A DNA stretch of 64,000 nt from an uncultured Flavobacteriaceae bacterium (lineage in GTDB: Bacteria; Bacteroidota; Bacteroidia; Flavobacteriales; Flavobacteriaceae), in contig CANNAC010000001.1 in the NCBI GenBank assembly GCA_947502495.1, forward strand, positions 372,001 through 436,000. Reading direction: 5' to 3'. Within the stretch, counting starts at the first letter, position 1. Every line of letters starts with the position of its first letter. The translations under genes and the position numbers were made by a program. The notes beneath the pieces are model-generated. The model was not told the DNA's origin. It searched no databases and saw only the letters and a list, made by a program, of their open reading frames with translations. This document shows positions 35,469-61,836 of this stretch, piece after piece.

Positions 35469-35498
35469 GGGTAACATTTCACATCGTTTTTGGATATA
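35469..35498 (+). promoter_or_regulatory. GGGTAACA box and TATA element, unit 1
   Basis: GGGTAACA at 35469-35476 and GATATA ending at 35498 (TATA starts exactly 26 bases after the box start). Identical in geometry to the boxes at 41441 and 48093. It sits 85 bases before the ATG at 35554. Confidence 0.65.
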
Positions 35499-35553
35499 GA
35501 AATAGAAAGCCAAAATAACGAAGCTTTTTTTTAATCTTTAAAATTTAAGAATC

Positions 35554-38358
35554 ATGAAGAAAACACTACTATTACTTGCTCTTTTTATAGCAACCCTAAC
35601 ACAAGCACAAACGGTATTAATTCCTAATGGAGGATTTAACGATGCTTTAGATATTGGTTTTTGGTCTGTTGCTTCAACACCCGCTACCAAATCTTGGTTT
35701 GATGGAGGATGCCAAGCTATGTTTGTAGATAATTTAGGAAATCCAGCAACAACGGTAACTTCTTCCGTTTTTAGTGTTGGGTTATCTGGAGATTATGAGT
35801 TGGAATTAGAATATGCAGTAATATATAGTGGAACTGCTGCTATATTTGAGTTAGTAGATGCTAATAGTGCAGTTATTAGTGCAACTTCCATTAATACAGT
35901 TACAGGTACTTGTACCGATTGGCCAAGTCCTAAGCATAGTTCATTAGTGTTCGCTAATTTGCCTGCTGGAAATTACCAATTACGAATAACAATTCCTTCG
36001 AGTCAGTTTTTTCTAGATGGCGTATCATTAGGAGCTTATAATCCTATAACGGTAAGTGGTAATGTAAATACTACTGGTTGTACTAATAATAATATGCTGA
36101 ATAATTTTCCGATGAAAATTACAGACTTAAGTGATAACTCTTCGGCATATACCGCTACCGTCAATGGTGTTTATAATTTTATATTACCAAATACTTCAGG
36201 TAATTTTTTAATAGAACCTGTTAATAATGGTAATATAGTTGCTACTCCAAATGGTATTAATTTAACCATTAACTCTTCATCTACGTCTTATATAAATAAC
36301 GATTTCTGTTTGACTAGTAATATTAATGGAGTAGAAGTGCAAGCACAATTAGTAAGTCAAAATTTAGCTAGACCAGGATTTGTTGCTTCCTACGATTTAA
36401 TTTATGGAAATAATGGAAATATAACAACAGGAAGTGAGTCTCTTATTTTAAATTTTGATAGCTCTAGACTAGCGTATATTACTAATTCCGCATCCGTTTT
36501 ACCAACAAGTGTAACAAGTGGTACTATTACTTGGTCTTATAGCAATTTAACACCTTTAGAGTTTAGGAATATTACACTTTCATTTAACGTACTATCGCCT
36601 CCTACTGTAAATAGTGGAGATGTTTTAAGCTTTACGGGAAACATTACTCCAACTTTGGATGTTAATCCGGTTAATAATAGTATTAATTTCAATCAAACGG
36701 TGGTAAATGGTTATGACCCTAATGATTTGTTGTGTATGGAAGGAGATGAAATCTCTACAACCCAAATTGGAGATGACTTAACATACAGAATTCGTTTTCA
36801 AAATACAGGAACAGCTTCTGCTGTAAACATTTCGGTTAAAACAGATTTAGATGCAGATTTAGATTGGTCTACGTTTCAGCCAATTGCTGCTTCACATGCG
36901 TATACAACGACAGTTGCGAACGGAAATGAGCTGACGTATACTTTTAATAATATTAATTTAGACGATGCAACAACAAATGAGCCAGGAAGTCATGGTTGGA
37001 TTTTTTATAAAATAAAACCTAAAAGTACAGTTGCAGTTGGGGATACATTTGACGCTACTGCTAGTATTTATTTTGATTTTAATCCTGCTGTGGTTACAAA
37101 TACATATACTACAAATATAGTATCACCTGCATTAACTTACGTACCAGATGATAATTTTGAAGCTCGTTTAATTGCACTAGGTCATGATTCTGGTTCTTTG
37201 GATGATTATGTGCCAACAGCAAATATAGACGCATTAACCACTTTAGATTTAGAAGATCAAGGTATTGTTGATATGACAGGAATAGAAGATTTTGTCGCAT
37301 TAGAATTCTTGTATTGTCATACCAATTCTATTGCTACTTTAGACGTGTCTTCCAATATAAATTTAACTACGCTAAATTGTAGTGGCAATGCTTTAACAAC
37401 TCTAGATGTTACATTAAATCCTAGCTTAACGTATTTGTCATGTAGTCAAAATCAGATTTCGAGCTTAACGATTAATAATTCCAGTCTGTTAACCGATTTA
37501 TTAATTAACAACAATCAATTAACAAGTTTTGATGCTTCTAGTCTTTCTAATTTAATAGACTTTAGATCTGGAGATAACCTACTAACCAGTCTTAATGTTA
37601 AAAATGGAAATAATACCAATTTTGTTTTATTTCAAGCAGGAAATAACCCAAACTTAACTTGCATTCAAGTAGATGATGCAGCTTGGAGCAGAACAAATTG
37701 GACCAATGTAGATGCGCAAACGGGTTTTAATGAAGATTGTGCAACAACATCTTATGATAACTACGAACCTAATGATAGTTTTGCGCAAGCTGTAAATATT
37801 CCACTTTGTAATATTTATAATCCTACTATTGGGGAGTCAGGCGATTTAGATTTCTTTACATTCCCTTTAGAGGCAGGTGTTGGTACGGAAGTTAAAATAA
37901 ATAATATTCCAGTAGGTTTAACGTATAAAGTAACCTTTATTGATAGTTATCAACAAACAACGCCACCATTTTATGTAACTAGTTCCGATCCGTTAACCAG
38001 ATACGTTTATTCCCCAATAGGCGGCTTCTATTATGTTAAAATAGAAAGTAACAATGCGAACTACAGTGTACTTCCTTATCAAATAGAAGTGTCTAATGCA
38101 AATTGTAGCTTAAGTGTTTCCGAAGTATTTAAAAGTAGTTTTAATGCTTTTCCTAATCCGGTAAAGAATAGTCTTACGGTATCTATACAAGAAGCTGCTA
38201 ATTATAGTTTAATAACTGTAAATGGGCAAATTATTAAACAAGGACAACTTCAAAAAGGAAACAACAGCTTAAATACTTCCAATCTATCTAACGGTTTATA
38301 CTTTTTACAAGTTAGAACGAAGGAAGGTGTTTCCACTAAAAAAATTGTAAAACAATAA
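35554..38358 (+). CDS. Secreted LRR-containing protein with T9SS type A sorting domain
   Basis: The 934-residue protein starts with a signal peptide (about 1-18). An N-terminal carbohydrate-binding-like beta domain with paired cysteines comes next (about 20-165). A DUF11/DUF7619-type domain spans about 385-520 (YDPNDLLCMEGDEIS, then YRIRFQNTGTASA). A leucine-rich-repeat block of about 21-residue units is at 545-730 (LTTLNCSGNALTTLDVT and similar). A pre-peptidase-like (PPC) beta domain is at about 745-850 (NYEPNDSFAQAVNI). The type A sorting domain at 860-934 (FPNPVKNSLTV to KKIVKQ) directs T9SS export. It leads the first unit of the island: the next gene follows after ten bases. Confidence 0.88.
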   Translation: MKKTLLLLALFIATLTQAQTVLIPNGGFNDALDIGFWSVASTPATKSWFDGGCQAMFVDNLGNPATTVTSSVFSVGLSGDYELELEYAVIYSGTAAIFELVDANSAVISATSINTVTGTCTDWPSPKHSSLVFANLPAGNYQLRITIPSSQFFLDGVSLGAYNPITVSGNVNTTGCTNNNMLNNFPMKITDLSDNSSAYTATVNGVYNFILPNTSGNFLIEPVNNGNIVATPNGINLTINSSSTSYINNDFCLTSNINGVEVQAQLVSQNLARPGFVASYDLIYGNNGNITTGSESLILNFDSSRLAYITNSASVLPTSVTSGTITWSYSNLTPLEFRNITLSFNVLSPPTVNSGDVLSFTGNITPTLDVNPVNNSINFNQTVVNGYDPNDLLCMEGDEISTTQIGDDLTYRIRFQNTGTASAVNISVKTDLDADLDWSTFQPIAASHAYTTTVANGNELTYTFNNINLDDATTNEPGSHGWIFYKIKPKSTVAVGDTFDATASIYFDFNPAVVTNTYTTNIVSPALTYVPDDNFEARLIALGHDSGSLDDYVPTANIDALTTLDLEDQGIVDMTGIEDFVALEFLYCHTNSIATLDVSSNINLTTLNCSGNALTTLDVTLNPSLTYLSCSQNQISSLTINNSSLLTDLLINNNQLTSFDASSLSNLIDFRSGDNLLTSLNVKNGNNTNFVLFQAGNNPNLTCIQVDDAAWSRTNWTNVDAQTGFNEDCATTSYDNYEPNDSFAQAVNIPLCNIYNPTIGESGDLDFFTFPLEAGVGTEVKINNIPVGLTYKVTFIDSYQQTTPPFYVTSSDPLTRYVYSPIGGFYYVKIESNNANYSVLPYQIEVSNANCSLSVSEVFKSSFNAFPNPVKNSLTVSIQEAANYSLITVNGQIIKQGQLQKGNNSLNTSNLSNGLYFLQVRTKEGVSTKKIVKQ

Positions 38359-38367
38359 TTATATATT

Positions 38368-39399
38368 ATGAAAACAATTAAAACAGCATGCTTTACTATG
38401 TTAATAGCTGCTTTTATTACTAGTTGTGATTCCGACGAAGATAATGATGTAACAACCGTTTGTGATGCTAAGTTTTACACAATGGCTGTAGACATCCCAG
38501 ATTCATCGGTTGGTGTTTTTGATATTTTTGAATACGAAAAATCCAACGTGCTCTCGACGCCAATGGCGCTTACTTCGGGAAATGCATTGAATAATGCGAC
38601 TGGAGGACCGTTAAGTGAAATGCTATCGGCAATAAATCCGAATACAGGAGAAATCACATATCAGTTTACCTATCATCCCGCTATATTTAAGTACAATATC
38701 AATTCGAATACGGTAACGCAAAGTACTTTCAATGGCGGTTATAATTATGAATACTTAGGGAACAGTTTATACTCTATAAAACACACCTATATTGGTTCTA
38801 GTGTATTATCGGATTATACCATAATTGATGCGTCTGGTAGTGCTGTTGGTCAAACAATTCAAAATGTAGATATTAGTAATTCTGGAGCAACTACATTATT
38901 GCTATTCAAATCCACATCAAATAATCAAGACAAGCTGTATTATTTAGCGAATACCAAACTTCTTACTTACAATAAAACAACAGATACTTGGAGTGATGAT
39001 CTTTTGGAAACGTATAATGAAACTACAAATAAGGTTTTTTATAGAAGTCTGGAGTATGTGGATGATAATACGCTTTATATTTTAAAGTCGGATGAGACTA
39101 TTGCTAGTAGCTATACGCTAGAACTTTTAAAAGTAGATATAAGTGGAAGTGTACCACAAGTTTCTGTAATAAAAGATTTGACAAACAGTCTTAGTTTAAG
39201 TGCGAATACGCTTTTAGCTCCTGGAGGAGATAGACAAATAAATGCAGCTTATGATGCTTGTGATGACAGTTTCTATTTTAATTACACCAATCCATTTACC
39301 ATGAATTCTATCGTTTTTGAAATTAAACTCATAAGCGATACTGTAAATGAATACCCCGTAAATGGTAAGTATTTATACGGCTTAGACATTATAAATTAA
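38368..39399 (+). CDS. Predicted surface lipoprotein, beta-propeller-like
   Basis: The 343-residue lipoprotein signal ends AFITSC, followed by DSDEDNDV. This acidic stretch after the lipidated cysteine resembles the lipoprotein export signal that sends Bacteroidota lipoproteins to the cell surface. The rest is beta-rich with repeated Tyr-x-Leu and Asn-x-Tyr strands (LYYLANTKLLTYNKTTDTW, LYILKSDETI), suggesting a propeller. No family is recognised. It is in an operon with the T9SS protein upstream (ten bases). Confidence 0.78.
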   Translation: MKTIKTACFTMLIAAFITSCDSDEDNDVTTVCDAKFYTMAVDIPDSSVGVFDIFEYEKSNVLSTPMALTSGNALNNATGGPLSEMLSAINPNTGEITYQFTYHPAIFKYNINSNTVTQSTFNGGYNYEYLGNSLYSIKHTYIGSSVLSDYTIIDASGSAVGQTIQNVDISNSGATTLLLFKSTSNNQDKLYYLANTKLLTYNKTTDTWSDDLLETYNETTNKVFYRSLEYVDDNTLYILKSDETIASSYTLELLKVDISGSVPQVSVIKDLTNSLSLSANTLLAPGGDRQINAAYDACDDSFYFNYTNPFTMNSIVFEIKLISDTVNEYPVNGKYLYGLDIIN

Positions 39400-39433
39400 T
39401 TCTATTTAATAAAAATAATAAACATCCCTAATT

Positions 39434-39880
39434 ATGAAATCAATTCTAAAAATAATTTTATTACTAGTAGTTACAGTTACACTGTTTAACTGCGATAATG
39501 ATGATAACGATGCGCCAAATACTAATGTTTGTAACTATCAAGGAGTTACTATAGAAGACGCAAACGGCAATGTATACACACAAATTGCAGCATCCGATTT
39601 ACAAACAGATTATTTTCCTAATAACGACGGACCAGGTTTAGCGGCTGTAGAAGTTTGGGATACCACTGTTCCAGGGCAGACATTTATTGTGACTAGAGCA
39701 TTAACAGTAGGTGCGGTAGATACAAATCCGGAGATTAGAATAAATAATATCGATTACACGGGAACAATAACTTGTCAACGTGCAGGATCTCTAGTAGGAG
39801 AAGAGTTAAGGTTGGATGTTGTTGTAAATTCCTTAGGCGAAGGAGAAGTATGTGTGACCATTGATTATGTGGCGCCTTAA
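39434..39880 (+). CDS. Small acidic lipoprotein, CQRAG family paralogue 1
   Basis: The 148-residue lipoprotein signal ends LFNC followed by DNDDNDAPN, a likely surface-export signal. The mature domain begins CNYQGVTIEDANGN, has a TDYFPNNDGPGL segment and ends with ITCQRAGSLVGEELRLDVVVN and CVTIDY. Two more genes in the island (41509 and 43462) encode the same layout. Three conserved cysteines in the mature part suggest a disulfide-stabilised beta sandwich. I know no described family; function unknown. Confidence 0.78.
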   Translation: MKSILKIILLLVVTVTLFNCDNDDNDAPNTNVCNYQGVTIEDANGNVYTQIAASDLQTDYFPNNDGPGLAAVEVWDTTVPGQTFIVTRALTVGAVDTNPEIRINNIDYTGTITCQRAGSLVGEELRLDVVVNSLGEGEVCVTIDYVAP

Positions 39881-39919
39881 TCCTAAAAATGTAATCGATA
39901 ACAAAGCATTAAACAATAT

Positions 39920-40720
39920 ATGTTTCCAAAATTATTTGATTTCTCTCTGCCAGATTTCTTGGCAAGCCTTTTTGGTGTAGAACAAGTTACAGTCTATTCC
40001 TATGCTACTTTAATTGCATTGGGTACATTAATAGCAGCGCTTTATACAAAGAGGAGTGCTAAAAAAGGGTTAGGGATTACAAAGCTTTCCAATAGTTTTT
40101 TCTATGGGATTTTTGCGGCAGGTTTTGTTGGCGGAAAGTTGTTTTACTACCTACAAGATCCTTTGCTATATATGCAAGATCCGAGTTTAATGTCTAATAA
40201 TTTTTCAGGCGGATTTGTGTTTTATGGATCATTTGTAGTGATTGTTCCTTATGTGATTTGGTACTTAAAAAAGCATGACATTCCCGTTTTACCCATGTTA
40301 GACATATTTGCAGTTACAACTACTATCGTGCATGCAATTGGGCGATTAGGTTGCTTTGCAGCAGGATGTTGTTACGGAGCGCCAACAGATAGTAGTATCG
40401 GATTAATTTTTCCAACGACACATGGTATTTCGGTGCACCCAACACAATTGTATGAAGCGATGCTATTACTCGTAATTATGGCAATACTATTAGTAGTTAA
40501 AAAGTACAAACAATTTAACGGACAGGTTTTCTTTCTCTATTTAATGCTCTATGCTTTTGGAAGAGGAATCTTAGAGCTTTTTAGAGGAGATGATCGAGGT
40601 TTTGTGATAGAGAATATACTATCGCATTCTCAATTTATCGCACTTTGTCTTATCTCAGTATCTGCTTATTTCTATTACAAAATTTATAAACAAATTAATA
40701 TAAACACACTTAATACTTAA
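39920..40720 (+). CDS. Divergent prolipoprotein diacylglyceryl transferase (Lgt) paralogue
   Basis: A 266-residue membrane protein with about seven transmembrane helices, in the Lgt fold family: GGKLFYYLQD (71-80), HAIGRLGCFAAGCCYG (138-153), HPTQLYEA (173-180) and GRGILELFRGDDRG (about 222-235). It departs from typical Lgt in two places. The HGG loop with the essential His is FYG (101-103) here, and the GRxGNFxNxE motif is GRLGCFAAGCCYG. The cell probably has a standard lgt elsewhere. Whether this one transfers diacylglycerol is open. It lies amid eight lipoprotein genes, and the lipoprotein next to it starts only four bases after its stop. Confidence 0.82.
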   Translation: MFPKLFDFSLPDFLASLFGVEQVTVYSYATLIALGTLIAALYTKRSAKKGLGITKLSNSFFYGIFAAGFVGGKLFYYLQDPLLYMQDPSLMSNNFSGGFVFYGSFVVIVPYVIWYLKKHDIPVLPMLDIFAVTTTIVHAIGRLGCFAAGCCYGAPTDSSIGLIFPTTHGISVHPTQLYEAMLLLVIMAILLVVKKYKQFNGQVFFLYLMLYAFGRGILELFRGDDRGFVIENILSHSQFIALCLISVSAYFYYKIYKQININTLNT

Positions 40721-40724
40721 AATC

Positions 40725-41417
40725 ATGAAAAAACATTTTTTAAAGACAATATTACCTACATTACTACTAGTAGGAGCAGTATTTATAATAGGAGCTGGAT
40801 GCAGCGGTCCCGCAGATGGTCAATCTACCTTTTGGCCAGATTTAGATGGTGATGGTTATGGTGATGCCTTTGTTGGAAACGGAACGATTTATGACGATGA
40901 TAATTTTCCTGATGGTTATGTGACTAATAGAGGCGATTGTGACGACACTAACGCGGCTATTAATCCTGGAGCTACAGAGATTCCAGATAATGACATTGAT
41001 GAAGACTGTAACGACCTTTTCGGAATAACCTTTTATAAAGATTCGGATAATGATGGTTTTGGAGATCCAAATGCTGGAAATGTTTTTGAAATTAGTTTTG
41101 GCGATCCTGCTCCAAATGGTATGGTGTATAATAATGCCGATTGCGATGATACTAACGATATGATAAACCCAAAAGCAGATGAAGTTGTTGGTAATAATAT
41201 AGACGATAACTGTGATGGTTATGTAGATATTATGGAGTATTACACCGATGCAGATGGCGATGGTTATGGAGCGGGTGATGCATTACCACCACCAGCAGTT
41301 GGAGTACATAATAATTTAGACTGTGATGATACTAACCCAGAAGTGTATCCGTATGCTATGGAAGTTGAAAATGGTATCGATGATGATTGTGATGGAATAG
41401 TAGATGAACTTTTTTAA
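40725..41417 (+). CDS. MopE-like lipoprotein with metal-binding repeats
   Basis: The 230-residue lipoprotein has a signal ending FIIGAGC (Cys27). The mature part carries three copies of the putative metal-binding MopE motif: DGDGYGDA plus GDCDDTNAAINPGATEIPDNDIDEDCND, and two similar blocks ending in NIDDNCDGYVD and GIDDDCDGIVD. The motif resembles EF-hand-like calcium loops and the copper-binding MopE domain. It starts four bases after the Lgt paralogue stop, so the two are tightly linked and likely function together. A 23-base spacer separates its stop from the next GGGTAACA box. Confidence 0.88.
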   Translation: MKKHFLKTILPTLLLVGAVFIIGAGCSGPADGQSTFWPDLDGDGYGDAFVGNGTIYDDDNFPDGYVTNRGDCDDTNAAINPGATEIPDNDIDEDCNDLFGITFYKDSDNDGFGDPNAGNVFEISFGDPAPNGMVYNNADCDDTNDMINPKADEVVGNNIDDNCDGYVDIMEYYTDADGDGYGAGDALPPPAVGVHNNLDCDDTNPEVYPYAMEVENGIDDDCDGIVDELF

Positions 41418-41440
41418 ATACTAAAAAAAAATCCATTATA

Positions 41441-41470
41441 GGGTAACAATTTCTTTGTTGGTTTGATATA
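41441..41470 (+). promoter_or_regulatory. GGGTAACA box and TATA element, unit 2
   Basis: GGGTAACA at 41441-41448 and GATATA ending at 41470 (26 bases from box start to TATA). It lies 68 bases before the ATG at 41509 and just after the end of the preceding unit. Confidence 0.65.
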
Positions 41471-41508
41471 AGGGAAATGTATAACTAATATAAAAACAAA
41501 TAACAATT

Positions 41509-41940
41509 ATGAAAACAACGATCAAAACCCTTTGTCTACTAGTTTTAACACTAGTATTATTTAACTGCGATAATGATGATGGAGATGCAGACAATCAAGA
41601 CGATTGTAATTTTGCAGGATTTACTTTTTTAGACACTGCAAACAATACACAAACATTAATTGGTGAATCTGATTTAACCACCGATTTCTATTATACATCT
41701 TCTAATGGGCCAGAAGTAGAAATCTATAAATCTAGCGATCCTGGAAATTTTTGGTTTGTAACCTTAGTTGTAACAGACGGAGCAACGGGAACAGGACAGT
41801 TAAGTGTTAATGGGACCATATATACTGTAAATGTTGCTTGTCAAAGAGCGGGTAATGCTATAGGCGAAGAATTTCGATACGATATTACTGGAGCCGGTTT
41901 AGAAGCAGAATATTGTGTTATAATTGACTTATACCATTAG
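41509..41940 (+). CDS. Small acidic lipoprotein, CQRAG family paralogue 2
   Basis: The 143-residue lipoprotein signal ends LFNC, then DNDDGDADN. The mature domain shows CNFAGFTFLDTANNTQTLI, DLTTDF, GTGQLSVNGTIYTVNVACQRAGNAIGEEFRYDI and a final CVIIDL, collinear with paralogues 1 and 3. It heads the second transcription unit of the island, with its own GGGTAACA box. The next gene follows after 86 bases. Function unknown. Confidence 0.78.
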   Translation: MKTTIKTLCLLVLTLVLFNCDNDDGDADNQDDCNFAGFTFLDTANNTQTLIGESDLTTDFYYTSSNGPEVEIYKSSDPGNFWFVTLVVTDGATGTGQLSVNGTIYTVNVACQRAGNAIGEEFRYDITGAGLEAEYCVIIDLYH

Positions 41941-42026
41941 AGATAACAGGTAAAAGAATATAGTCACTTCTAATGTTCTAGATAGGAATAGTGCAAGTGT
42001 AGTTCAATATTTAAATACTTAAAAAC

Positions 42027-43451
42027 ATGAAAAAGATACAAATAGTATTATTTCTAATTATTGCAACCTTTTTAGGTTGCAGTAATCAGAATGGAGAAGG
42101 AGGGGTTGATGAAAATCCTTGCGAGATTGGAGATCAAGGTATGGTTCTGACCGAAAGTAATTCTCCAAACCCAGTATATCTTCAATTTGACGATTCTAGA
42201 ATGGTTGTTCAATATGTAACAGGGCATCCAGATGGAGATTATTTCCACATGTATAGTACAAATGTTTCTCCAGCCGTAGATCTATATACTTTTGCAATTA
42301 ACGCTGGAGATACATCTACTTTTGACCAAAATTTTAATGTTACTGCCGGAAGTTATTTGGCGGTAGATGGTACACCTTACCCGCAAAGCAATACATTGGT
42401 TTTAAATACTATAATTGGAGGATCACAAGTTGGTGATGCGGTAAAAATGGAATTTGAAGGAGATTATGACGGCGATGAGATTCATATAACTGGTGAGTTA
42501 TGTTTAACTATAGATGAAGTAATTGGGGTACAAGATTTTGTTTATATCACAGACGGATTAAGTCTTAAAGTTGTAGATGTTTCGGATCCATATGCTCCTT
42601 CTATGGCAACAACAATACCTCTACCATCTTCTCATTACGTTAAAGTTATTAATAATAGTGTTGCTTTGGTAGGGCAAATAGATAGCGCAGAACCTTATGT
42701 AAATACGATTAATATTTCGAATCCAGGAACTAGTTATGTGATGGCTACAACGGCAAAGAACAGTTCAAATACTATTTTAACAGATGTGACAACGCTAGAT
42801 AATAAGGCGGTATTAACAGATCTTCATTTTAGAAATAAAACGTTGGAGATTAATACCAATCAAATGGTAGGTATTGGAGATATTCACGGTGGGTTTGGTA
42901 TAACAAATGTAGCCGATGCGTATTTGATTTTATTAGATGGTTTGGGAGTGTCTACCTACGGCATAGATGCTAATTATGATCTTTCTTATCCTTTTCTTCC
43001 GAGTAATGCTACGTTGCAATGGACGTCGTTGGTAGGTAACAGGTTTGACCGAGTAGAAACAGACGGTACTTATTCTTATATAGCGAATGTAGAAGGTCAG
43101 AAATTATTAAAGGTAGACGTGACTAATTCAGCTATTAATCAGTTAAGTTCTTTGGATATTGCTGGGCATCCTTCCTCTTTAGCGATTTATAATAATTACG
43201 CTTTTGTAACCATGTCTCCAACAGGGACAGTGCCTTATAATGCCGGTTTTGATGGCATTAAAATGATTAATTTAACCAGCATGCAGGTTGTAGATAGTAG
43301 TGTACTATCCAATACAAGCGGTGTAGTTGTTTATGGTAGTTATGCGTACGTAACCGATGGAAACGGTTTGCATATCTATGATATTAGTTCAGGAAGTTTA
43401 AGTTTAATTACAACATACAACCCAGGATTTGGTAATTACATATCCATTTAA
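42027..43451 (+). CDS. LVIVD-type beta-propeller lipoprotein
   Basis: The 474-residue lipoprotein has a signal ending ATFLGC (Cys18) and an SNQNGEGG linker. The N-terminal 150 residues form a beta domain that resembles the end of the CQRAG proteins. The C-terminal 300 residues hold LVIVD-like repeats (VYITDGLSLKVVDVSDPYAP, YSYIANVEGQKLLKVDV, YAYVTDGNGLHIYDIS) that form a propeller. Such domains usually bind ligands at the cell surface. The downstream gene starts ten bases after the stop, at 43462. Confidence 0.82.
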   Translation: MKKIQIVLFLIIATFLGCSNQNGEGGVDENPCEIGDQGMVLTESNSPNPVYLQFDDSRMVVQYVTGHPDGDYFHMYSTNVSPAVDLYTFAINAGDTSTFDQNFNVTAGSYLAVDGTPYPQSNTLVLNTIIGGSQVGDAVKMEFEGDYDGDEIHITGELCLTIDEVIGVQDFVYITDGLSLKVVDVSDPYAPSMATTIPLPSSHYVKVINNSVALVGQIDSAEPYVNTINISNPGTSYVMATTAKNSSNTILTDVTTLDNKAVLTDLHFRNKTLEINTNQMVGIGDIHGGFGITNVADAYLILLDGLGVSTYGIDANYDLSYPFLPSNATLQWTSLVGNRFDRVETDGTYSYIANVEGQKLLKVDVTNSAINQLSSLDIAGHPSSLAIYNNYAFVTMSPTGTVPYNAGFDGIKMINLTSMQVVDSSVLSNTSGVVVYGSYAYVTDGNGLHIYDISSGSLSLITTYNPGFGNYISI

Positions 43452-43461
43452 AACTATTCTT

Positions 43462-43908
43462 ATGAGAAAAATATGCCTATTACTACTTTTATTATGTACC
43501 ATGACATCTTGTGATAATGATGATGACATTAATAATGATGCAACAAATCAAGACCAATGTAATTATCAAGGGTTCTCGTATTTGGATACGAATAACAACG
43601 ATCAAACATTAATTCAGGAGTCCGAATTAAACACGCAACATTTTCCAAATGCAAGTAACGGACCTTATGGTGCTCCAGGAATAGAAATCGCATCGTTTAC
43701 AAGTTCACCGACGCTGTTTTTTACTACCAATGCCATAGAATTAAATGAAACTGGAACGGGTTGGATTTCTATAAACGGTGCGCAACTAGAAGCGGTAACC
43801 GTTACTTGTCAACGTGCAGGAACCGCAGTAGGTGATGAAGTGCGATTAGATGTTGTCTTCGGGGCAATTGAAGTAGAGTTTTGTGTTATTATTGATGAAG
43901 TTTTATAA
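43462..43908 (+). CDS. Small acidic lipoprotein, CQRAG family paralogue 3
   Basis: From the ATG at 43462 the product is 148 residues. The lipoprotein signal ends TMTSC, then DNDDDINND. The domain carries CNYQGFSYLDTNNNDQTLI, the ESELNTQHFP segment, WISINGAQLEAVTVTCQRAGTAVGDEVRLDVVF and CVIIDEVL. A longer frame opens at 43429 inside the upstream gene, but its extra 11 residues spoil the lipoprotein signal. It is closest to paralogue 1 in the DYFP/QHFP region. Confidence 0.78.
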   Translation: MRKICLLLLLLCTMTSCDNDDDINNDATNQDQCNYQGFSYLDTNNNDQTLIQESELNTQHFPNASNGPYGAPGIEIASFTSSPTLFFTTNAIELNETGTGWISINGAQLEAVTVTCQRAGTAVGDEVRLDVVFGAIEVEFCVIIDEVL

Positions 43909-43919
43909 ATATATTGAAG

Positions 43920-44237
43920 ATGAAAATAGCATTAAAAGGTTTTGTGTTTCTTATTTGTTTGCTTGTTTTTAATTGCAAGAATGAAAGTAATACACAGGGG
44001 ATAGAAGAAGACGCTAAATCGGAAACGTTGAAATCGTTAACGGAAGACGAAAAAAGAGAGATAGTAGCATACTATTTAATTCACGGTAAAAAAATGACCG
44101 AAAAAGATTTTTATAAAATTATCTTTTTGAATGATTTTGTAGATGGAGTTAAAGTCATTTATTACGAAGATAGCAATGCTTTTTTTGGTCTTAAGTTTTC
44201 GGAAGCATTAGATTTTTATAAGGCTAATAAAAAGTAG
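43920..44237 (+). CDS. Small lipoprotein, hypothetical
   Basis: A 105-residue protein from the ATG at 43920 (a TTG two codons upstream is also possible). The lipoprotein signal ends LLVFNC, then KNESNTQGIEED. The helical mature part (SLTEDEKREIVAYYLIHGKKMTEKDF) is lysine- and glutamate-rich. It is the last gene of unit 2, 11 bases after the CQRAG paralogue 3 stop. No family recognised. Confidence 0.7.
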   Translation: MKIALKGFVFLICLLVFNCKNESNTQGIEEDAKSETLKSLTEDEKREIVAYYLIHGKKMTEKDFYKIIFLNDFVDGVKVIYYEDSNAFFGLKFSEALDFYKANKK

Positions 44238-44357
44238 AACAGCAAAAGCTGTTTTGAAATTAGACAAACCTTTTTAGTTCTCTTTAAAGATCGGTTATAA
44301 TAGGGATTGCATTAATTGTATGTAAAACCGAAGCATGCAAAACAATTACAAAACCAT

Positions 44358-44365
44358 TACATTTG
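44358..44365 (+). promoter_or_regulatory. -7 element TACATTTG for the LytS/LytTR operon
   Basis: An exact TAnnTTTG match 53 bases before the ATG at 44418. No TTG at the standard -33 spacing. An AGGG-containing stretch about 50 bases further upstream is only loosely like the GGGTAACA boxes. Confidence 0.5.
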
Positions 44366-44417
44366 TAATACAACACAAAAATAAAAACGATTGAAGTATA
44401 AAAAACGCCATATCCCA

Positions 44418-47339
44418 ATGCTATCCTTTTTGATAAGGCGTTTTTATTCTGTGTTTCCTGTTTTTTTTAAAAAGACAGAAATACTAGCAAGGCAACAAAT
44501 ATTTACTTTCTTTATTTGTTTTTCGGTTGCTACTTCCTTTGCACAACAGTACACCAATTATTCTACAAAAGATGGTTTACCAAGCAACCATGTATATACT
44601 ATTATACAAGATGCCAAAGGCTTTATGTGGTTTTTAACCGATAAAGGAATGACAAGGTTTAATGGAAATCAATTAATAACATTTACAACCAAAGATGGAT
44701 TGCCAAATAATGATGTTTGGGATGCGTATCCAACGCCTGATGGTAAAGTTTGGTATATGTCTAAATCTGCAAGTTTGGGCTATGTAAAAGACGATTCTAT
44801 TTTATCCTTTCCTAATAGTAATAAAAACAAAATTATTAATCCAATATATTCGTCGCAAGTAGGAGATTCTGTTTATCCATCTGGTCCAAATAGAACTTTT
44901 ACATTAAAGGATAAGCAATGGATTGGTGAGTCTAGTAGATCTATTAATAACTTGTTTTTAGACAAGGTAAAAGTCAGACATAGTTCTGTGGCTAATATTA
45001 GATTTGAAGGAGATGGGAAGATAAATTTATACGATAAAAAAAATAATGTAATAACTAGTTTTTATTCTAAAGTTGTTCATGGAAAAACGGGTACCAGAGG
45101 ACAATTAAATGATAGTTTATATTTCTGGACTACAAATAAAAATTATACAATACTTAATTTCAATACTCTAAAAATAAAAACAATTCATCTAAAGAATAAG
45201 ATAGATCTAGAGGAAGTTAATAATTTAAGAATCAATTTAGTCAATTGCGCTTTGCAAATTTCGGGTAACGGATTTGTATCTAAGTTAGATGAAAACTATG
45301 AAATAGTTGATCCGTTCTTTTTTCCTAAAAATATGCAAGCCCATTTTGGTTTAATAGATAAGTTAAATACCATTTGGATTGCCACTTTTAATAATGGCGT
45401 TTACAAGTTGCCTTATGTAAAGCGAAATGTAAAATATGAATTGCTCAATGAGAAAATTCAAAGCTTCAATATTATAAACAAGGAATTAATTGTAGGTGTA
45501 TATGGAAAAGGATTCTATAAATATGATAAACAAGAAAAAGCATTTCAAGAATTTATAAAAAGGGACGATTATGTTTTTGGTGCAAGCCGAATAAATCAAT
45601 TAAACACCAATTTCTACCTATTTAAAAATGCCTTATCTAAAGAAGTAAATGAAACTATTTCCACGGTAGATCTTTCCGAAATTTACATGCAAGATTATGA
45701 TATAAATGAATTAGGGCGTAAACTCTTATATTTTGAGGGCAAGTTGTATGGGAATTTTTCGTTTGGAATTAATCAGTTGAATTTAAATTCTTTAAAAGTA
45801 GAGAAAGAATTCCGTCAAAAAGGAGCGAATGATATTGTTTGTTTTAAAGACCGCTTATTAATTGCAACGACCAATGGTTTGAAGGAAATTAAAAACGATT
45901 CCTTACAACCTATAGTGTTTAAGAATGAAACATTTAATAAATCTATTTTAAGTATTAAAAAAATAGATGAAAGTAGCATTATAATTAATACGGATGGTTT
46001 TGGTGCGTATATTTCAGATTTAAAAGAAATAAAACCTTTAGTTTCTACAGCCTTTTTAATTGTTGAAGAAGCTTTTATTCAGAATAAAAACTTATGGTTA
46101 GCAACAAATACGGGTGTTTTAAAATTCATAAAAAAAAATAACGAGTATCAACTAGATAAACAATTTACAATAGAAGATGGTTTGCCAACAGACCACATAA
46201 ACACGGTGTTTGTAGATGATGAAAACCTAATAGTAGGTACCAATAATGGCATAGCAATTTTACCAAAAAACAAGGAAAGCATACCGCAGTTATTAGACGT
46301 GTATATTGGGGAAGCCAAGTATAATAATAAGAATATAACAGCAGATAGTAACACCTTTAAATACACCGAAAATAATAACGTTAATATTACAGTCGCAAAT
46401 ATAGATTTCTCAGAAAATAACACCGATTTCTTGTATGATTTTAAGTTGGAACCTTCTCAGGAAAATTGGACAACCACCAATACAAATATTTTCAACTTTA
46501 ATAACTTGCAACCAGACACATATGTTTTTCATTTTAAGTCTGGGACTATCCTTAAGCAATTGCATTTTACTATAAAACCATTGTGGTGGCAGACATTTTG
46601 GATTAAAGTCTTGGTTATATTATTGGGTGTTTTTTTAGTAGCTTTAATCTCTAGGTTTTTTGTGAAACGTTCTCAATTTAAAAAGAATCAAAAAGTTTTT
46701 GAAGACAAACGCCTAAGTGAATTACAGTTAAAAGCATTACGATCTCAAATGAATCCACATTTTGTATTCAACTCGCTTTCGGCAATTCAATATTATATTG
46801 GTGAAAATGATTTTGAAGCTTCAGAAACCTATTTAGTGAAATTCTCAAAGCTTATTCGTCAATTTTTTGAGCTTTCTAAAGAAAACGAAATCTCTTTAGC
46901 TGTAGAAATAAGCTTGCTTAACAATTATTTAGAAATTGAAAAACTTCGGTTTAAAGAAAAACTAAATTTCACTATACATGTAGATCCTAGTTTAGATAAG
47001 GAAAATACTAAAATACCAACCATGTTATTGCAGCCAATAGTAGAAAATGCGGTAAATCATGGTGTTTTTAATAAAATGGAAAATGGCTTAGTAGCATTGC
47101 GTTTTATATATATAGATTCTCAAACTTTTAAAGTAGAAATTGTAGACGATGGCGTAGGTTTTGTGAATACCAAGAAGCGACAAAATAAAAGCGTTAAATC
47201 TTCAAACGTATTAAAAGATAGATTACATTTTTTTAATTATTCTGAAAAATGGGAAATCAGTTATAAAGAAGAAGAAGTACATCCAGATAAAAAAGATAAA
47301 GGGAATAAATCGGTGTTTTTAATTAAGATAATTAAATAA
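44418..47339 (+). CDS. LytS-type sensor histidine kinase with Reg_prop/Y_Y_Y sensor
   Basis: About 973 residues from ATG 44418; a TTG at 44391 would add nine residues. Two-component beta-propeller repeats follow the signal peptide (GLPSNHVYTIIQDAKGFMWFLTDKGMTRFNG; GLPTDHINTVFVD). A Y_Y_Y domain lies before a transmembrane helix at about 721-746. The kinase domain has the His_kinase/LytS motif RSQMNPHFVFNSL with phospho-acceptor His near 781, and the N-box LLQPIVENAVNHG. The sensor is periplasmic, the kinase cytosolic. The stop overlaps the regulator's start by one base (TAATG). Confidence 0.93.
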   Translation: MLSFLIRRFYSVFPVFFKKTEILARQQIFTFFICFSVATSFAQQYTNYSTKDGLPSNHVYTIIQDAKGFMWFLTDKGMTRFNGNQLITFTTKDGLPNNDVWDAYPTPDGKVWYMSKSASLGYVKDDSILSFPNSNKNKIINPIYSSQVGDSVYPSGPNRTFTLKDKQWIGESSRSINNLFLDKVKVRHSSVANIRFEGDGKINLYDKKNNVITSFYSKVVHGKTGTRGQLNDSLYFWTTNKNYTILNFNTLKIKTIHLKNKIDLEEVNNLRINLVNCALQISGNGFVSKLDENYEIVDPFFFPKNMQAHFGLIDKLNTIWIATFNNGVYKLPYVKRNVKYELLNEKIQSFNIINKELIVGVYGKGFYKYDKQEKAFQEFIKRDDYVFGASRINQLNTNFYLFKNALSKEVNETISTVDLSEIYMQDYDINELGRKLLYFEGKLYGNFSFGINQLNLNSLKVEKEFRQKGANDIVCFKDRLLIATTNGLKEIKNDSLQPIVFKNETFNKSILSIKKIDESSIIINTDGFGAYISDLKEIKPLVSTAFLIVEEAFIQNKNLWLATNTGVLKFIKKNNEYQLDKQFTIEDGLPTDHINTVFVDDENLIVGTNNGIAILPKNKESIPQLLDVYIGEAKYNNKNITADSNTFKYTENNNVNITVANIDFSENNTDFLYDFKLEPSQENWTTTNTNIFNFNNLQPDTYVFHFKSGTILKQLHFTIKPLWWQTFWIKVLVILLGVFLVALISRFFVKRSQFKKNQKVFEDKRLSELQLKALRSQMNPHFVFNSLSAIQYYIGENDFEASETYLVKFSKLIRQFFELSKENEISLAVEISLLNNYLEIEKLRFKEKLNFTIHVDPSLDKENTKIPTMLLQPIVENAVNHGVFNKMENGLVALRFIYIDSQTFKVEIVDDGVGFVNTKKRQNKSVKSSNVLKDRLHFFNYSEKWEISYKEEEVHPDKKDKGNKSVFLIKIIK

Positions 47340-48079
47340 TGAGCAATATAACAGCCATATTGGTAGATGATGAGGTTTCAAATTTAAAAGGATTACAACG
47401 TAAAATTGAAAAATTGTTTCCTAATATTCAAATTTCTGGAGCTTTTCAAAAACCGGAAGATGCTATAGAGGCAATTCAGAAACAAGAACCAAATATTCTT
47501 TTTTTAGATATTGAAATGCCTAGAATTAGTGGTTTTGAGTTACTTGCTAAATTAAGTGACGTTAATTTTCAAGTTATTTTTGTAACTGCTTATAATGAGT
47601 ATGCTCTAGAAGCTTTTAAAAAGAATGCCATAGGTTATGTTTTAAAGCCTATTGATAATAACGATTTAGTGGAAGCGGTACATAATGCAATGAATATTGT
47701 TAAATTAAAAAATGAAAGTGAAAACAACTCTAAATTGGTAACTTTATTAGAAGAAAATATATCTAAAAACAATAAGATAATTGTGCCAACCCAAAAAGGA
47801 GTTTCTTTTATACCTCAGGATGAGGTGTTGCATTTAGAGGGATATGAAGGCTATACTAAAATTCATTTAATAAATAATACAACCATAATAAGTTCTTACA
47901 ATTTAGGTAAGTTCGAAAAATTACTAAACTCCAAATTTTTTAAATGCCACAAATCACATATTATTAATCTAGATAAAGTCCGTCATTTTGAAAATGAAGG
48001 ATATGTAGTTCTAGAAAATGCGTATCGTGTTCCCATATCTAAAACCAATAAAAAGGCATTTTTAAGTTTGTTTCAATAA
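47339..48079 (+). CDS. LytTR response regulator
   Basis: The 246-residue protein has a receiver domain with acidic pocket VDDE (9-12), phospho-acceptor Asp57 in LFLDIEMP, a T/S switch in VTAY and Lys in VLKPID. The LytTR DNA-binding domain occupies about 140-246 (LHLEGYEGYTKIHL, KFFKCHKSHIINLDKV). LytTR proteins bind pairs of short direct repeats upstream of targets. Its partner kinase overlaps it by one base, and it is followed by an AGGGTAACA box that leads into the 48165 gene. Confidence 0.95.
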   Translation: MSNITAILVDDEVSNLKGLQRKIEKLFPNIQISGAFQKPEDAIEAIQKQEPNILFLDIEMPRISGFELLAKLSDVNFQVIFVTAYNEYALEAFKKNAIGYVLKPIDNNDLVEAVHNAMNIVKLKNESENNSKLVTLLEENISKNNKIIVPTQKGVSFIPQDEVLHLEGYEGYTKIHLINNTTIISSYNLGKFEKLLNSKFFKCHKSHIINLDKVRHFENEGYVVLENAYRVPISKTNKKAFLSLFQ

Positions 48080-48092
48080 ATTTCAGAAAATA

Positions 48093-48122
48093 GGGTAACA
48101 ATAGTTCAAGTAGGTTTATGTA
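48093..48122 (+). promoter_or_regulatory. GGGTAACA box and TATA-like element, unit 3
   Basis: GGGTAACA at 48093-48100, with TGTA (48119-48122) at the same 26-base offset where the other two sites have TATA. It lies 72 bases before the ATG at 48165. Confidence 0.6.
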
Positions 48123-48164: not shown

Positions 48165-49910
48165 ATGAAAAATAGAAACACCAAATCCAAATTATTACTG
48201 AGTCTAATACTTGTAATAGGAATCTTATTTACATCCTGTGATCCCAAAGATGTTAACGAGTCTTATGAACCAGGAGAAAATAATGAAATAGGTTTAGACT
48301 TAGGGCAAAGCGTACAACACGATTTTATGGGTCGAATTGTGGATGAATCCAATGTTCCAATAGAAAACGTAATGGTCTCTATCGGATCAAAAATGGAGTC
48401 TACAGATGCCAATGGTATGTTTATTATTAATAATGCAAATGTAAAAAAAAGACAAGCATTTATTGTAGCAGAAAAACCTGGTTATCTAAAAGGAATGCAA
48501 AGTCTGGTGCCTACTCAAGGTACAAATACGGTGCGCTTAATGTTAATTCCTCTAAATGTAATAGCAACGATTTCCTCTGGAGGAGATAGTGAAGTGAACT
48601 TACCAAACGGAACTATCGTTAAGTTTGATGGTGCGTTTAAAGAGGAAAACGGAAATGCCTATTCCGGAAATGTAGATGTGATCATGTATCATTTAGATCC
48701 TTCAAACCCGGATATTGATGCAATAATGCCTGGTAATTTACAAGCTGAAAATGCTAGTGGTGAAGAACGTATTCTGGAGTCTTACGGCATGTTAAATGTA
48801 GAATTAAGAGGAACGTCTGGTCAAGAATTAAATATAGCAGATGATCATTTCGCAGAAATTGAAATGCCAGTAGATCCTGCACAAAGCGGTAATGCACCAG
48901 CAACGATTCCTTTATGGCATTTTGATGAAGTAAACGGGTATTGGATAGAAGATGGAGAAGCGATTTTAATTGGAGGGAAATATGTTGGTGAAGTTTCTCA
49001 TTTTTCATGGTGGAACTGTGACGCACAATTTCCAACAGTTACCTTATGTTTAAATGTGGTGGATGCTGCAAATATTCCATTATCTAATGTAAAAGTCGAA
49101 ATGTTTAGAAGTGGAGCAACCTATCCAAGAACAGGAATCTCTAATGGTAATGGTGAAATATGTGGTTTAATACCAGCAAATGAAACCTTAACAATAAAAA
49201 CATTCGATCAATGTGGTATAGAAGTATATTCTACAACTATAGGTCCTTTTTCAACAAATACCAGTTATGGTGATTTAGTGTTGCCAACAGTATCTGCAGC
49301 AGTAATTACTGGTAATCTAGTGGATTGTTCTAGTGCTAACGTTACTAATGGTTATGCAGCTGTAACCTATGGAAACCAATATGCAACTGTAGATGTAACC
49401 AATGGAAGTTTTTCTTTAAGTGTAATCCAATGTGCTTCTTTAGCCGATTTTACTTTAGAAGGCGTTGATTTTGATACTTTTCAAACAACTACAGCGTTGC
49501 CTTTTACTTTTAATAATACCAACGTTGGAAATATAATTGCTTGTTCTTCGGTAACAGAGTTTATTAGTGTGCGAGTAGATAATAATCCAACAGATTATTT
49601 TTTAGCAAGTATAAATGCAAGTGCTAACCAATCAAGCCCTGGAATCTCTATTGGGTCTCAAACAAATCTGAACTACTTCCATGTTGGATTAGGGACTACA
49701 ACACTAGGTAACTATTCTTTAGATCAGTTTGGTTTTGAAGTATCCAATATAAATTTAGATTATTCTATACCAACTAATTTACAACTAAATTTATCTAATT
49801 ATGGTACGGCTGGTAACTATATAGACGCAACTATTAACGGAACCTATACGGATACTTCAGGAAATGTGAGAAACCTTTCTGTAACCATACACGTAATAAG
49901 AGATATGTAA
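48165..49910 (+). CDS. Carboxypeptidase-regulatory-like domain lipoprotein
   Basis: The 581-residue lipoprotein signal ends LFTSC (Cys25) followed by DPKDVNESYEPGE. A carboxypeptidase regulatory-like (CarboxypepD_reg) domain is at about 55-130 (GRIVDESNVPIENVMVSIGSKMESTDANGMFII). Several Ig/beta sandwich domains follow, including a second CarboxypepD_reg-like segment with CLNVVDAANIPLSNVKVEMFRSG. The C-terminus is a mixed beta domain ending near IHVIRDM. No sorting domain is seen. It is a surface-type structural lipoprotein under its own GGGTAACA box, right after the LytTR gene. Confidence 0.85.
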   Translation: MKNRNTKSKLLLSLILVIGILFTSCDPKDVNESYEPGENNEIGLDLGQSVQHDFMGRIVDESNVPIENVMVSIGSKMESTDANGMFIINNANVKKRQAFIVAEKPGYLKGMQSLVPTQGTNTVRLMLIPLNVIATISSGGDSEVNLPNGTIVKFDGAFKEENGNAYSGNVDVIMYHLDPSNPDIDAIMPGNLQAENASGEERILESYGMLNVELRGTSGQELNIADDHFAEIEMPVDPAQSGNAPATIPLWHFDEVNGYWIEDGEAILIGGKYVGEVSHFSWWNCDAQFPTVTLCLNVVDAANIPLSNVKVEMFRSGATYPRTGISNGNGEICGLIPANETLTIKTFDQCGIEVYSTTIGPFSTNTSYGDLVLPTVSAAVITGNLVDCSSANVTNGYAAVTYGNQYATVDVTNGSFSLSVIQCASLADFTLEGVDFDTFQTTTALPFTFNNTNVGNIIACSSVTEFISVRVDNNPTDYFLASINASANQSSPGISIGSQTNLNYFHVGLGTTTLGNYSLDQFGFEVSNINLDYSIPTNLQLNLSNYGTAGNYIDATINGTYTDTSGNVRNLSVTIHVIRDM

Positions 49911-51877: not shown

Positions 51878-54800
51878 ATGAAAAAATACCTACTAGTAGT
51901 TCTTGTCATTTTTATTAGTCACATAGCACGCTCACAGTGTATGCAAATAGAAATCCCATTGGAAGAAAGAATAAATGCTTCCTCAATTATTGTAGAAGGA
52001 GAAGTGATTGCAAAACAAAGTTATTGGGATGCAAAACAGCAAAATATTTTTACAGTAAATACCGTAAAACCTTATAAAACTTTTAAAGGTTCATTATCTA
52101 ATACTGCACCTATAGAAATTATTACATTAGGAGGTACTGTTGCTGATACTAAAATGGATGTTAGCAATGCTCTGCAACTTAACACAGGAGATATTGGTAT
52201 GTTCCTTTTAAAAGCTTCTTCCGTTTCATTAACAAAACGTGGGAACTTTTTAACCACAGTAGAAGGGACGCAAGGTTCTATTAAGTATGATAGGTACGAT
52301 GCTTCTGCAAGCGATGGTTTTAAACGGTATACATCTGTAGTAAGCGAATTATATCCGCTTATTCAATCTAAAGCAGGGCGAAGTTTTACAACTCTAGAAG
52401 CGGTAAACATATTTCAGGATACCTCTCGTAGAGTAGGTTCTATTTCTAATATTAGTCCAACAACCGCTAATGCAGGTGTAAGTGATATTCTTACCATTAA
52501 TGGTAGTGGTTTTGGCTCAAGTCAAGGTCATATCGATTTTATAGACGCTAATGGTGATGGAACAGCTTGGATTTCTACCTTCCCTAGTGATGTTATATCC
52601 TGGAGTGCTACTCAAATAAAAGTAAAAGTGATTTCTAGAGCGAGTACAGGGCTAATAAGGATAATAGATTCCTCTAATGGAATAGCACAAAGTAGTCAAG
52701 TTTTAACCGTGAACTGGGCGCATTCAAATCCAAATGTAGACACGGGTTCGGGCGAAATACGGTATGAAAATACGCTAAGGGGCAAGGATGCCAATGGCGG
52801 TTACGAATTTAAATTTGCTCCTAATTTTAGCGCAACAAACGTGCAAGATTCTTTTAATAGAGCTTTAGCCACTTGGAACTGTGGTTCTGGGGTTAATTTT
52901 GAAATAGCAGGGTCGACTACCGTTGATGAAATTGCCAGTGACGGCACCAATGTTATAGTCTATCAAGCATTGGGTTTAGGAACTTTGGCTTCCGCTATAA
53001 CGTGGTCTACTTACTGTACTATAAATGGTGTGCTCCAAGGATGGTACGTTAGTGAAATGGACATTAGGGTTAATAGCAATCAAAATTGGCACTATGGAAA
53101 CGGGATTCCTGGTGATATTACAAAATATAATTTTGAAACGGTGGCTTTACATGAACTTGGTCATGCACAGCAATTGGGGCATGTAGGACAACAAGGTGAC
53201 ATTATGTATTATTCCTTAGCACCAGGAACAAGAAATGCAGAATTAAGTACCGAGACATTAAATGGCGCAAATTATGTAATGAATAAAAGTACTACAACTA
53301 GTGTTTGTGGTCAGCCAGTAATGACGCCATATGCAGGAAGTATTTGCTGTAACGACCCAGAAATTGTAGCAAATCCTATAAATACTACTAACTGCATTAA
53401 CGAAACAGAAAATTTTAGCATTACAGCAAATTATGCGACAGGTTTTCAATGGGAAGTAAACACTGGATCAGCTTGGGCTACTATAACAAATAATACGACC
53501 TATAGTGGGGCACAAAGCAGCACGCTTTCGGTAACTAAAATTGCCACAAGTATGAACGGTTATCAATACAGATGTATTGCTAGTAATAGTTGTACAAATA
53601 CTGCAACTTCCAATGCAGTAACTTTAACCGCAGATAAGCCTGAAGTAACGCTCTCTGCAACAGAAGAAACACCATGCGATACCAACGATGGTACAATAAC
53701 ATTTACATTTTTAGATAATCCTAATCGTACAGGAATTCAGTTTAGTATAAATGGCGGAACCACATATACAAGTATTTACGATGATAATTCAGGGTCTGTA
53801 ACTCTAACAGATTTAGCACCAAACACGTATTCTGTATATTCTAGATGGGGAAACGGTCAATGCGAAGTAGAAGTTGGAGATATTACTGTAGTAGAAAGAA
53901 CTAATCCTGAGGCATCTGTTGTAGATTCTACTCCTTCAGATTGTAGCTCAGCAACAGGAAGTGTAACCCTAAATTGGGTTGTAGACCCTATTAGAACGGA
54001 CATAGAGTTTAGTACAGATGGAGGTGTTAGTTACCCACATTCTACAACTAATCCATCTGGTACCATAACTATAGGTAGCTTACCATCTGGTACAACAGAT
54101 CTTTGGGTACGTTGGGGAAACGCAGATTGTCCTATAGATATGGAAGATGTTACCATTTCGAATTCAAATTGCGATTTTAGTAATGGTTTTATTACCACTT
54201 GGGAAACAGTAAATGATGGGACGACTAATAGCAATAGTATTGCCATACCAATTGCTAGCACTGGTACTTATAATTATCATGTAGATTGGGGAGACGGCCA
54301 GTTTGACTATAATGTAACGGGAGGTATTACACATCCTTACGCAACACCAGGAACCTACCAAGTTAAAATAATAGGAGATTTTCCTCATATTTATTTTAAT
54401 AATACTGGCGATAAGCAAAAAATACTATCTGTAGAGCAATGGGGTGCTAATTCTTGGTCGAGTATGGAAAATGCTTTTCATGGTTGCAATAATTTAATTA
54501 TAAACGCTACCGATAACCCAGATTTAAGTAATGTTACAGACATGTCTTTTATGTTTACATTTTGTAGCTCTTTTAATCAAGATATAAATACTTGGGATGT
54601 TAGTAATGTAACAAACATGGCACATACTTTTAGAAATACGGCAGCTTATAATCAAAATCTAAGTGGATGGGTTGTTAGCAATGTAACTAATATGACCAGT
54701 ATGTTTTGGAATGCTAATGTTTTTAATCAAGATATTAGTGCTTGGGATGTAAGTAGTGTCACCAATATGTCGTTAATGTTTCGTAGTGCCGATAATTTTA

Positions 54801-61206: not shown

Positions 61207-61836
61207 TTATAGAAACACAAGTTCTTTATGTACTTTAGTCCAATCTAATAAATTATTAGTGTTTAATTTAGCTATAATGTTCGTTCGGTGTTTTTGTACG
61301 GTTCTTACAGAAATAAAAAGAGATTCTGCGATGTCTTTTGTGCTTTTGTCTTGTGAAATTAATTGAAGTATTTTAATTTCAGATGGCGATAAATTCTGTA
61401 GTTTTTCAAGTTCTGGAGAAATTTGATTTTCATAAACTGCTTTAAATACCGAGCTAAAATAGGTTCCGCCATTATTGATGACTAGTATGCATTTTTCAAT
61501 TTCATCAAAAGGTTCATCCTTTAGTAAATATCCAGAAATATTTAGTGTTTTCGCTTTAAGTACATATCTATTTTCTTTATGAGATGTAAGTACTATGAAT
61601 TTGGTATTTATGTTTTTGTTTTCACATTTTTTTATCACATCAAACCCAGAAAGTAAAGGCATTTGAATATCCAGAATAGCAATATCTGGTTTGTGTTTTA
61701 AAATTAACGCTAAAACTTTCTTTCCATCTTCAGCGGTTGCAATAACATTATAATTATTGCTTATTAATTCTTCTGTCAATCCTTTTAATAGCAAAGGATG
61801 GTCGTCTGCTATTATAATTTTATTTTTTTTTGGCAT
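61207..61836 (-). CDS. LuxR/NarL-type response regulator
   Basis: The 209-residue protein has a receiver domain with acidic pair Asp11-Asp12, phospho-acceptor Asp56 in ILDIQMP, the TS pair at 84-85 and Lys106 in LLKDEP. The C-terminal LuxR helix-turn-helix is about 145-209 (LSPSEIKILQLISQDKSTKDIAESLFISVRTVQKHRTNIIAKL). The gene overlaps the upstream kinase by 17 bases. Regulators of this class bind inverted or direct short repeats, and the TACGTA pairs at 51761 and 60369 are candidate sites. Confidence 0.94.
   Translation of the reverse strand: MPKKNKIIIADDHPLLLKGLTEELISNNYNVIATAEDGKKVLALILKHKPDIAILDIQMPLLSGFDVIKKCENKNINTKFIVLTSHKENRYVLKAKTLNISGYLLKDEPFDEIEKCILVINNGGTYFSSVFKAVYENQISPELEKLQNLSPSEIKILQLISQDKSTKDIAESLFISVRTVQKHRTNIIAKLNTNNLLDWTKVHKELVFL

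Follow-up and report, generated by a model that had tools for sequence, protein, structure and literature searches.

In a 64,000-nucleotide stretch of an uncultured Flavobacteriaceae bacterium (assembly GCA_947502495.1, contig CANNAC010000001.1, positions 372,001 to 436,000; here called the window), the octamer GGGTAACA precedes three gene units of a surface-protein island. Judging from sequence comparisons, each of these boxes, together with a KATATA-type hexamer 16 bases downstream, very probably constitutes a promoter (-35 GGGTAACA, -10 KATATAA) for one extracytoplasmic function (ECF) sigma factor. An earlier note had assigned the boxes to the LytTR response regulator encoded in the island. 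Its view that conserved, promoter-proximal boxes with fixed spacing join the three units as one regulon was upheld, and its choice of LytTR as the reader was not.

Both strands of the window were scanned. GGGTAACA was found on the plus strand at 35469, 41441, and 48093, as previously described, and no copy was found on the minus strand; the plus-strand total is five (22508, 22722, 35469, 41441, and 48093) and not four as had been counted. Shuffled windows contained 1.32 copies on average over both strands, and five were reached in 2 of 100 shuffles. The -35 elements of promoters 1, 2, and 3 (35469 to 35476, 41441 to 41448, and 48093 to 48100, all on the plus strand) face, after a 16-base spacer, the -10 elements GATATA (35493 to 35498), GATATA (41465 to 41470), and TATGTA (48117 to 48122), the last being one base away from KATATA. 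The reported occurrence of TATA, TATA, and TGTA at 26 bases from the respective box starts was confirmed, as were the distances to the first genes (85, 68, and 72 bases to the ATGs at 35554, 41509, and 48165; reported as 68 to 85) and the promoter-like placement of the box, which takes the -35 position. The copies at 22508 and 22722 have no KATATA at 16 bases and were rejected as promoters. Genome-wide, the 8-mer was not enriched (45 copies versus 89 for the reversed control), and by itself it is therefore no proof. When the pattern GGGTAACA-N13-TTTGATATA was searched with at most one mismatch, three sites were identified in the 4.07-Mb genome: 35469, 41441, and one on another contig beside a sigma factor gene. 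Box 48093 departs from this pattern at three positions, and a genome-wide search tolerating up to three mismatches showed no excess (26 sites versus 27 in the control).

The site on the other contig is upstream of genes for a small exported protein and a lipoprotein, which are divergent from an ECF sigma factor gene outside the window (G000:C3:404373-404951; L129:8374-8955). The 193-residue product conforms to the ECF type (regions 2 and 4 only, ~190 residues), with matches to TIGR02937 over residues 26 to 180 (53.3 bits; cutoff, 42.9) and to Pfam Sigma70_r2 (28.1 bits; cutoff, 24); the Pfam model for region 4 on its own gave no match. Against solved proteins, the single match of the sigma profile at an E value of ≤0.001 was the ECF factor SigL in the PDB (E value, 9.4e-5). 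The motif RKKKS is present in the C-terminal part of all 14 aligned orthologs. Two Oceanihabitans records contain the sigma factor at 98% and 95% identity, which makes Oceanihabitans the probable genus of the window. The sigma factor was also found in Lacinutrix, Olleya, Flavivirga, Winogradskyella, Bizionia, Tamlana, and other Flavobacteriaceae, and together with its promoter element it is shared by many marine flavobacteria.

The spacing rule is sharpest at the loci of this sigma factor. The best 80 of 373 relatives, selected by sigma protein similarity rather than by motif, yielded 80 loci with 1,558,343 bases in total, in which GGGTAACA followed by KATATA at spacers of 6 to 26 was found 140 times at spacer 16, once at 17, twice at 24, and nowhere else (140 of 143 matches at one spacing). 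Four rearranged patterns gave no matches in the same loci, nor did any of 20 Markov sets. All 140 spacer-16 sites are located upstream of the sigma gene and point away from it; they occur in 74 of the 80 loci, and the remaining six loci contain one-mismatch forms. An ATG opening at least 70 codons follows 139 of the 140 sites at a median distance of 73 bases. Among the genes after these sites, all 138 that were found encode a hydrophobic N-terminal stretch, and 73 encode a lipobox-like cysteine, according to a crude test that had no control. A single constant spacer to the KATATA hexamer suggests a requirement imposed by a sigma factor. A search for GGGTAACA-N{16,19}-GATATA in 60 genomes, including that of the window, returned 18 matches in 9 genomes, all with spacer 16, and several of them adjoin the same sigma gene. 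Three pattern matches were rejected as promoters: one in G020, which lies inside an open reading frame (ORF), one in L003, which by eye lies inside a small coding gene, and one in L005, which lies inside a 784-codon ORF. Elsewhere, an element was seen 230 bases upstream of a gene with curli-like repeats (identified by eye) in another genus (G103; L132:6928, minus strand), and at G006:C14:150127-153099 a run of five identical 30-base matches to the pattern suggests a repeat array.

Across 149 Flavobacteriaceae genomes, a sigma ortholog (at least 57% identity) was identified in 19, and a further six genomes have only a distant sigma paralog with 30% to 34% identity. The spacer-16 element was present in 18 of the 19 sigma-bearing genomes versus 6 of the 130 others (Fisher P = 3.5e-17). 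For spacers 12 to 20, the sigma-bearing genomes contained 43 matches at spacer 16 and 11 at all other spacers, and the distribution in the sigma-less genomes was roughly flat, with 44 matches in total, 6 of them at 16. Forward and reversed-control counts over the same spacers were 54 versus 15 in sigma-bearing genomes and 44 versus 116 in sigma-less genomes. The excess is therefore limited to spacer 16 and to genomes having the sigma factor.

The same association was seen among seven genomes of the genus, four of which encode the sigma factor (G000, G002, G003, and G004). G000 and G004 have all three island boxes, and box 3 of G004 has a perfect -10; the G004 genome as a whole has five perfect elements, namely these three and two more in the sigma operon. 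In G002, two island boxes are present, one of them box 1, and the unit 3 gene was not seen. In G003 (84% complete), boxes 1 and 3 are on separate contigs, box 3 again with a perfect TATATA, and the stretch with box 2 falls outside these contigs. Among the genomes without the sigma factor, G001 has an intact box 1 and a decayed box 2, with the unit 3 gene not seen; G005 has box 1 with two mismatches, and its box 2 was not seen; and the stretch of G006 that was read showed no boxes and none of the genes that begin units 1 to 3. Where they can be read, the island boxes are thus kept in the four sigma-bearing genomes; in the three others they have decayed or were not seen, box 1 of G001 excepted.

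Two profiles built from the sigma loci were applied to the window promoters. By a weight matrix of 135 distinct sites, from which the two Oceanihabitans loci had been excluded, the three boxes ranked first in the window with 28.5, 18.8, and 18.4 bits, and the next score was -3.0. Since a site entered the training set only if it matched both elements exactly, just the remaining columns are unaffected by the selection. An Infernal sequence-only profile of 69 of 137 such sites, searched against the whole genome, scored the sigma site at 51.7 bits, 41441 (second in the genome) at 30.1, C3:345959, which has no box, at 19.2, 35469 at 18.7, the second promoter of the sigma operon at 16.5, and 48093 at 13.8 (rank 8 of 22). 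Several of the weaker and intermediate matches have no box.

A number of observations weigh against this assignment of the boxes to the sigma factor. The six element-bearing genomes without an ortholog include only one, G108, with the distant paralog, and G001 retains an intact promoter 1 despite having no sigma factor of this clade (a search down to an E value of 1e-10 gave no related sigma in this genome). Conversely, G125 has the sigma gene and no perfect element in the genome scan, with a one-mismatch form at the sigma locus. Pooled over spacers 12 to 20 and all 149 genomes, the 98 matches show no excess over the reversed control (131, counted by hand), and the 18 GATATA matches compare with 10 in their reversed control. 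As for the window itself, promoter 3 has an imperfect -10 and an Infernal E value of 0.21, promoters 1 and 3 score below the lowest training site of the matrix (22.9 bits), and 1 of 40 random windows reached 18.1 bits. The anti-sigma role proposed below for the partner protein has its own difficulties: the match to the NF052375 antisigma model (E value, 2.3e-5) is far below the family cutoff, and the structure matches listed for the partner involve the TPR part alone and contain no solved anti-sigma domain.

That the boxes are binding sites of the island LytTR response regulator, acting as an activator at a -33 position, is very improbable. The pair is indeed encoded between units 2 and 3 and, as the earlier note stated, is the sole regulator recognized among the genes between 35469 and 48122. 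In another genus, a related LytS/LytTR island (G122; L119:7462) has a spacer-15 element before lipoprotein genes leading to LytS/LytTR, and G001 combines LytS/LytTR and one intact box with no sigma factor. However, the element recurs at orthologous ECF sigma loci, and of the 15 genomes that have the sigma factor and no LytS match, 14 carry it. With up to five best LytS candidates scored per genome, it was found in none of the 5 genomes that have a LytS match of at least 40% identity and no sigma ortholog, and in 1 of the 13 that have any LytS match at an E value of 1e-60 and no sigma. All seven genus genomes encode LytS followed by LytTR, yet no intact island box was seen in two of the three sigma-less ones; the boxes follow the sigma factor rather than this pair. 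Neither the family nor the genus comparison therefore showed the co-occurrence of site and regulator expected of a LytTR regulon. The boxes are also unlike the LytTR repeat consensus, and by that consensus the window contains one repeat pair, at 50212, away from the three target genes.

Another transcription factor traveling with the sigma operon could bind the box, with KATATA serving as an ordinary -10; the LuxR-type regulator that ends this operon in the present genome would be a candidate. We give this little credence: of the 143 exact pairs, 140 share one spacing, and the orientation is the same throughout, and the -10 does not resemble the primary flavobacterial TAnnTTTG given in the excerpted text of PMC9723704. 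It is similarly doubtful in the extreme that the window promoters are read by a paralogous ECF sigma factor with the same -35 (L130:5802-6365), which also has a TPR partner (locus L130:5002-9637, G000:C6). GGGTAACA does precede the divergent lipoprotein and CHAT/TPR genes of that locus, but it lacks KATATA at 16 bases, and close orthologs of the paralog occur only in G000 and G004 among the seven genus genomes, whereas G002 and G003, the latter 84% complete, still have island boxes. Chance clustering of the 8-mer, with which its lack of genome-wide enrichment would agree, has next to no likelihood, given the spacing rule and the fact that the boxes are conserved at orthologous positions within the genus.

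The ECF sigma gene is followed by a gene for a 248-residue membrane/TPR protein with one predicted membrane helix, and in 76 of the 80 loci an ORF of 240 to 259 codons begins between -20 and +60 bases from the sigma stop codon. The structural model of this partner (mean predicted local distance difference test score, 77; N-terminal half less sure) comprises N-terminal helices, a helix at residues 93 to 112 that is taken as the putative membrane span, and a TPR domain resembling that of YbgF. The partner is probably the anti-sigma factor of this sigma. On the divergent side, the genes encode, in order, the small exported protein, the lipoprotein, a PKD/DUF7619/DUF7849 protein, a CHAT/TPR protein, a retropepsin-like protease, and the LuxR-type response regulator; their order and strand suggest a single operon. 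From these elements we infer a scheme of signal, anti-sigma action, and transcription. An envelope signal at the TPR domain of the partner would free the sigma factor, and RNA polymerase with the freed sigma would transcribe the divergent sigma operon and, in this genus, also the three window units with their surface lipoproteins and a protein sorted by the type IX secretion system (T9SS). LytS/LytTR would be a neighbor or passenger in the island.

Some downstream sigma promoters may have a second function. It is possible, though we hold this only tentatively, that promoters lying directly after a stop codon are terminator-promoters, in which a conserved terminator-like hairpin has the -35 box as its left arm. 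Read-through from the preceding gene would then be cut and the next gene restarted by this sigma alone, which would place every gene in a tandem surface-protein array under the sole control of the sigma factor. The stop-codon class comprises 48 of the 140 sites (at most 60 bases past the stop of an open frame of at least 90 codons, first promoters excluded) and has a median folding energy of -14.3 kcal/mol, compared with -2.3 for 31 other downstream promoters and -1.1 for 61 first divergent promoters (Mann-Whitney P = 8e-19 for 48 versus 61). These sites were not selected by a stem-favoring pattern, but terminators are common after stop codons anyway. The left arm of the stem includes the -35 box at L129:7728-7769 (minus strand) and at 33 sites in L139 to L215. 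An alignment of 35 sites, 34 of them distinct, showed both partners exchanged in 3 and 4 rows for two pairs immediately flanking the box and in 1 row for the outermost pair; these 8 compensatory cells were reached in 0 of 500 shuffles and the number of such pairs (3) in 28 of 500. Since 33 of the 35 sites had been selected by a pattern favoring a paired stem, the compensatory counts lean that way. At the second sigma-operon promoter of this genome, the box reads GGGTAGCC and the stem is retained. No strong hairpin was found on folding the three window boxes (-2.0, -5.2, and -0.1 kcal/mol); the second had a weak advantage over its shuffles, of which 8 in 200 folded as well.

The island genes are all on the plus strand. 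The first gene of unit 1 (35554 to 38358) encodes a T9SS-sorted protein containing leucine-rich repeats and DUF7619, a domain that recurs in the sigma-operon protein L129:4501-6462. This unit 1 protein has blastp matches in 40 of the 80 sigma loci (best E value, 1e-8). The remainder of unit 1 (38368 to 41417) comprises lipoprotein-like genes at 38368 and 39434, an Lgt-family gene at 39920, and a MopE-type metal-binding lipoprotein-like gene at 40725; the lipoprotein assignments in this unit were made by eye from N termini. The Lgt-family product, a prolipoprotein diacylglyceryl transferase (39920 to 40720), is thus encoded within a lipoprotein island. Unit 2 (41509 to 44237) has lipoprotein-like genes at 41509, 42027 (LVIVD repeat), 43462, and 43914. 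It is followed by genes for the LytS-type sensor kinase (Reg_prop and His_kinase; 44391 to 47339) and the LytTR response regulator (47339 to 48079), the formerly proposed reader. The LytS gene may be expressed by read-through from unit 2 or from its own promoter: TACATTTG at 44358 to 44365 is like a primary -7 box, an 8-mer not clearly above chance in the window. Unit 3 (48165 to 49910) encodes a lipoprotein-like protein with a carboxypeptidase-regulatory-like match below the Pfam cutoff. Farther downstream are a gene for a 2,482-residue protein that combines eleven DUF285 stretches with PKD and a matrixin-like peptidase domain (51878 to 59326) and, at 61207 to 63955, a regulator gene adjoining that of a Y_Y_Y-domain histidine kinase; this regulator has blastp matches in 61 of the 80 fetched sigma loci.

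The promoter rule is sharp, and it outlines a candidate regulon, small enough to be checked, for an ECF sigma factor with a TPR partner. The presence of an Lgt-family enzyme and several lipoprotein-like genes in the distal island hints at envelope remodeling. The case also cautions that the nearest regulator should not be assumed to be the reader of a motif.

An AAC in the -35 element and a spacer of ~16 bases are usual for ECF promoters. The present system resembles ECF sigma/membrane anti-sigma pairs in that the sigma gene is followed by one for a one-helix membrane protein, target promoters are few, and the -35 contains AAC at a 16-base spacer; it differs in the AT-rich -10 KATATAA and in the TPR domain of the probable anti-sigma factor. 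A literature search at the level of titles and abstract beginnings, with few subscription papers covered, returned no description of the motif or of this sigma system; the letters GGGTAAC or GGGTAACA occur in PMC7755780, PMC2533406, PMC4236526, and PMC8419279 as text matches alone. According to excerpts of the respective papers, ECF-type control in Bacteroidota is known from the SM6 promoters of Flavobacterium psychrophilum, in which further ECF-controlled start sites may await discovery (PMC9723704), and from the PorXY-SigP control of T9SS genes in Porphyromonas gingivalis (PMC4800418). These systems likewise place surface or T9SS functions under ECF-type control, with another -10; in the present case the targets comprise lipoproteins plus one T9SS-sorted protein rather than the secretion machine, the sigma factors having been compared by family models only. 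The excerpted account of Dma/Das (ECF21) of Bacteroides also describes a Bacteroidota sigma with an envelope-spanning partner, but Dma proteins end in a beta-barrel, whereas the partner described here has 248 residues, one predicted membrane helix, and TPR helices (PMC13088901). With LytTR two-component regulators, the island shares the presence of a LytS/LytTR pair; it differs from them in that its boxes follow the sigma factor.

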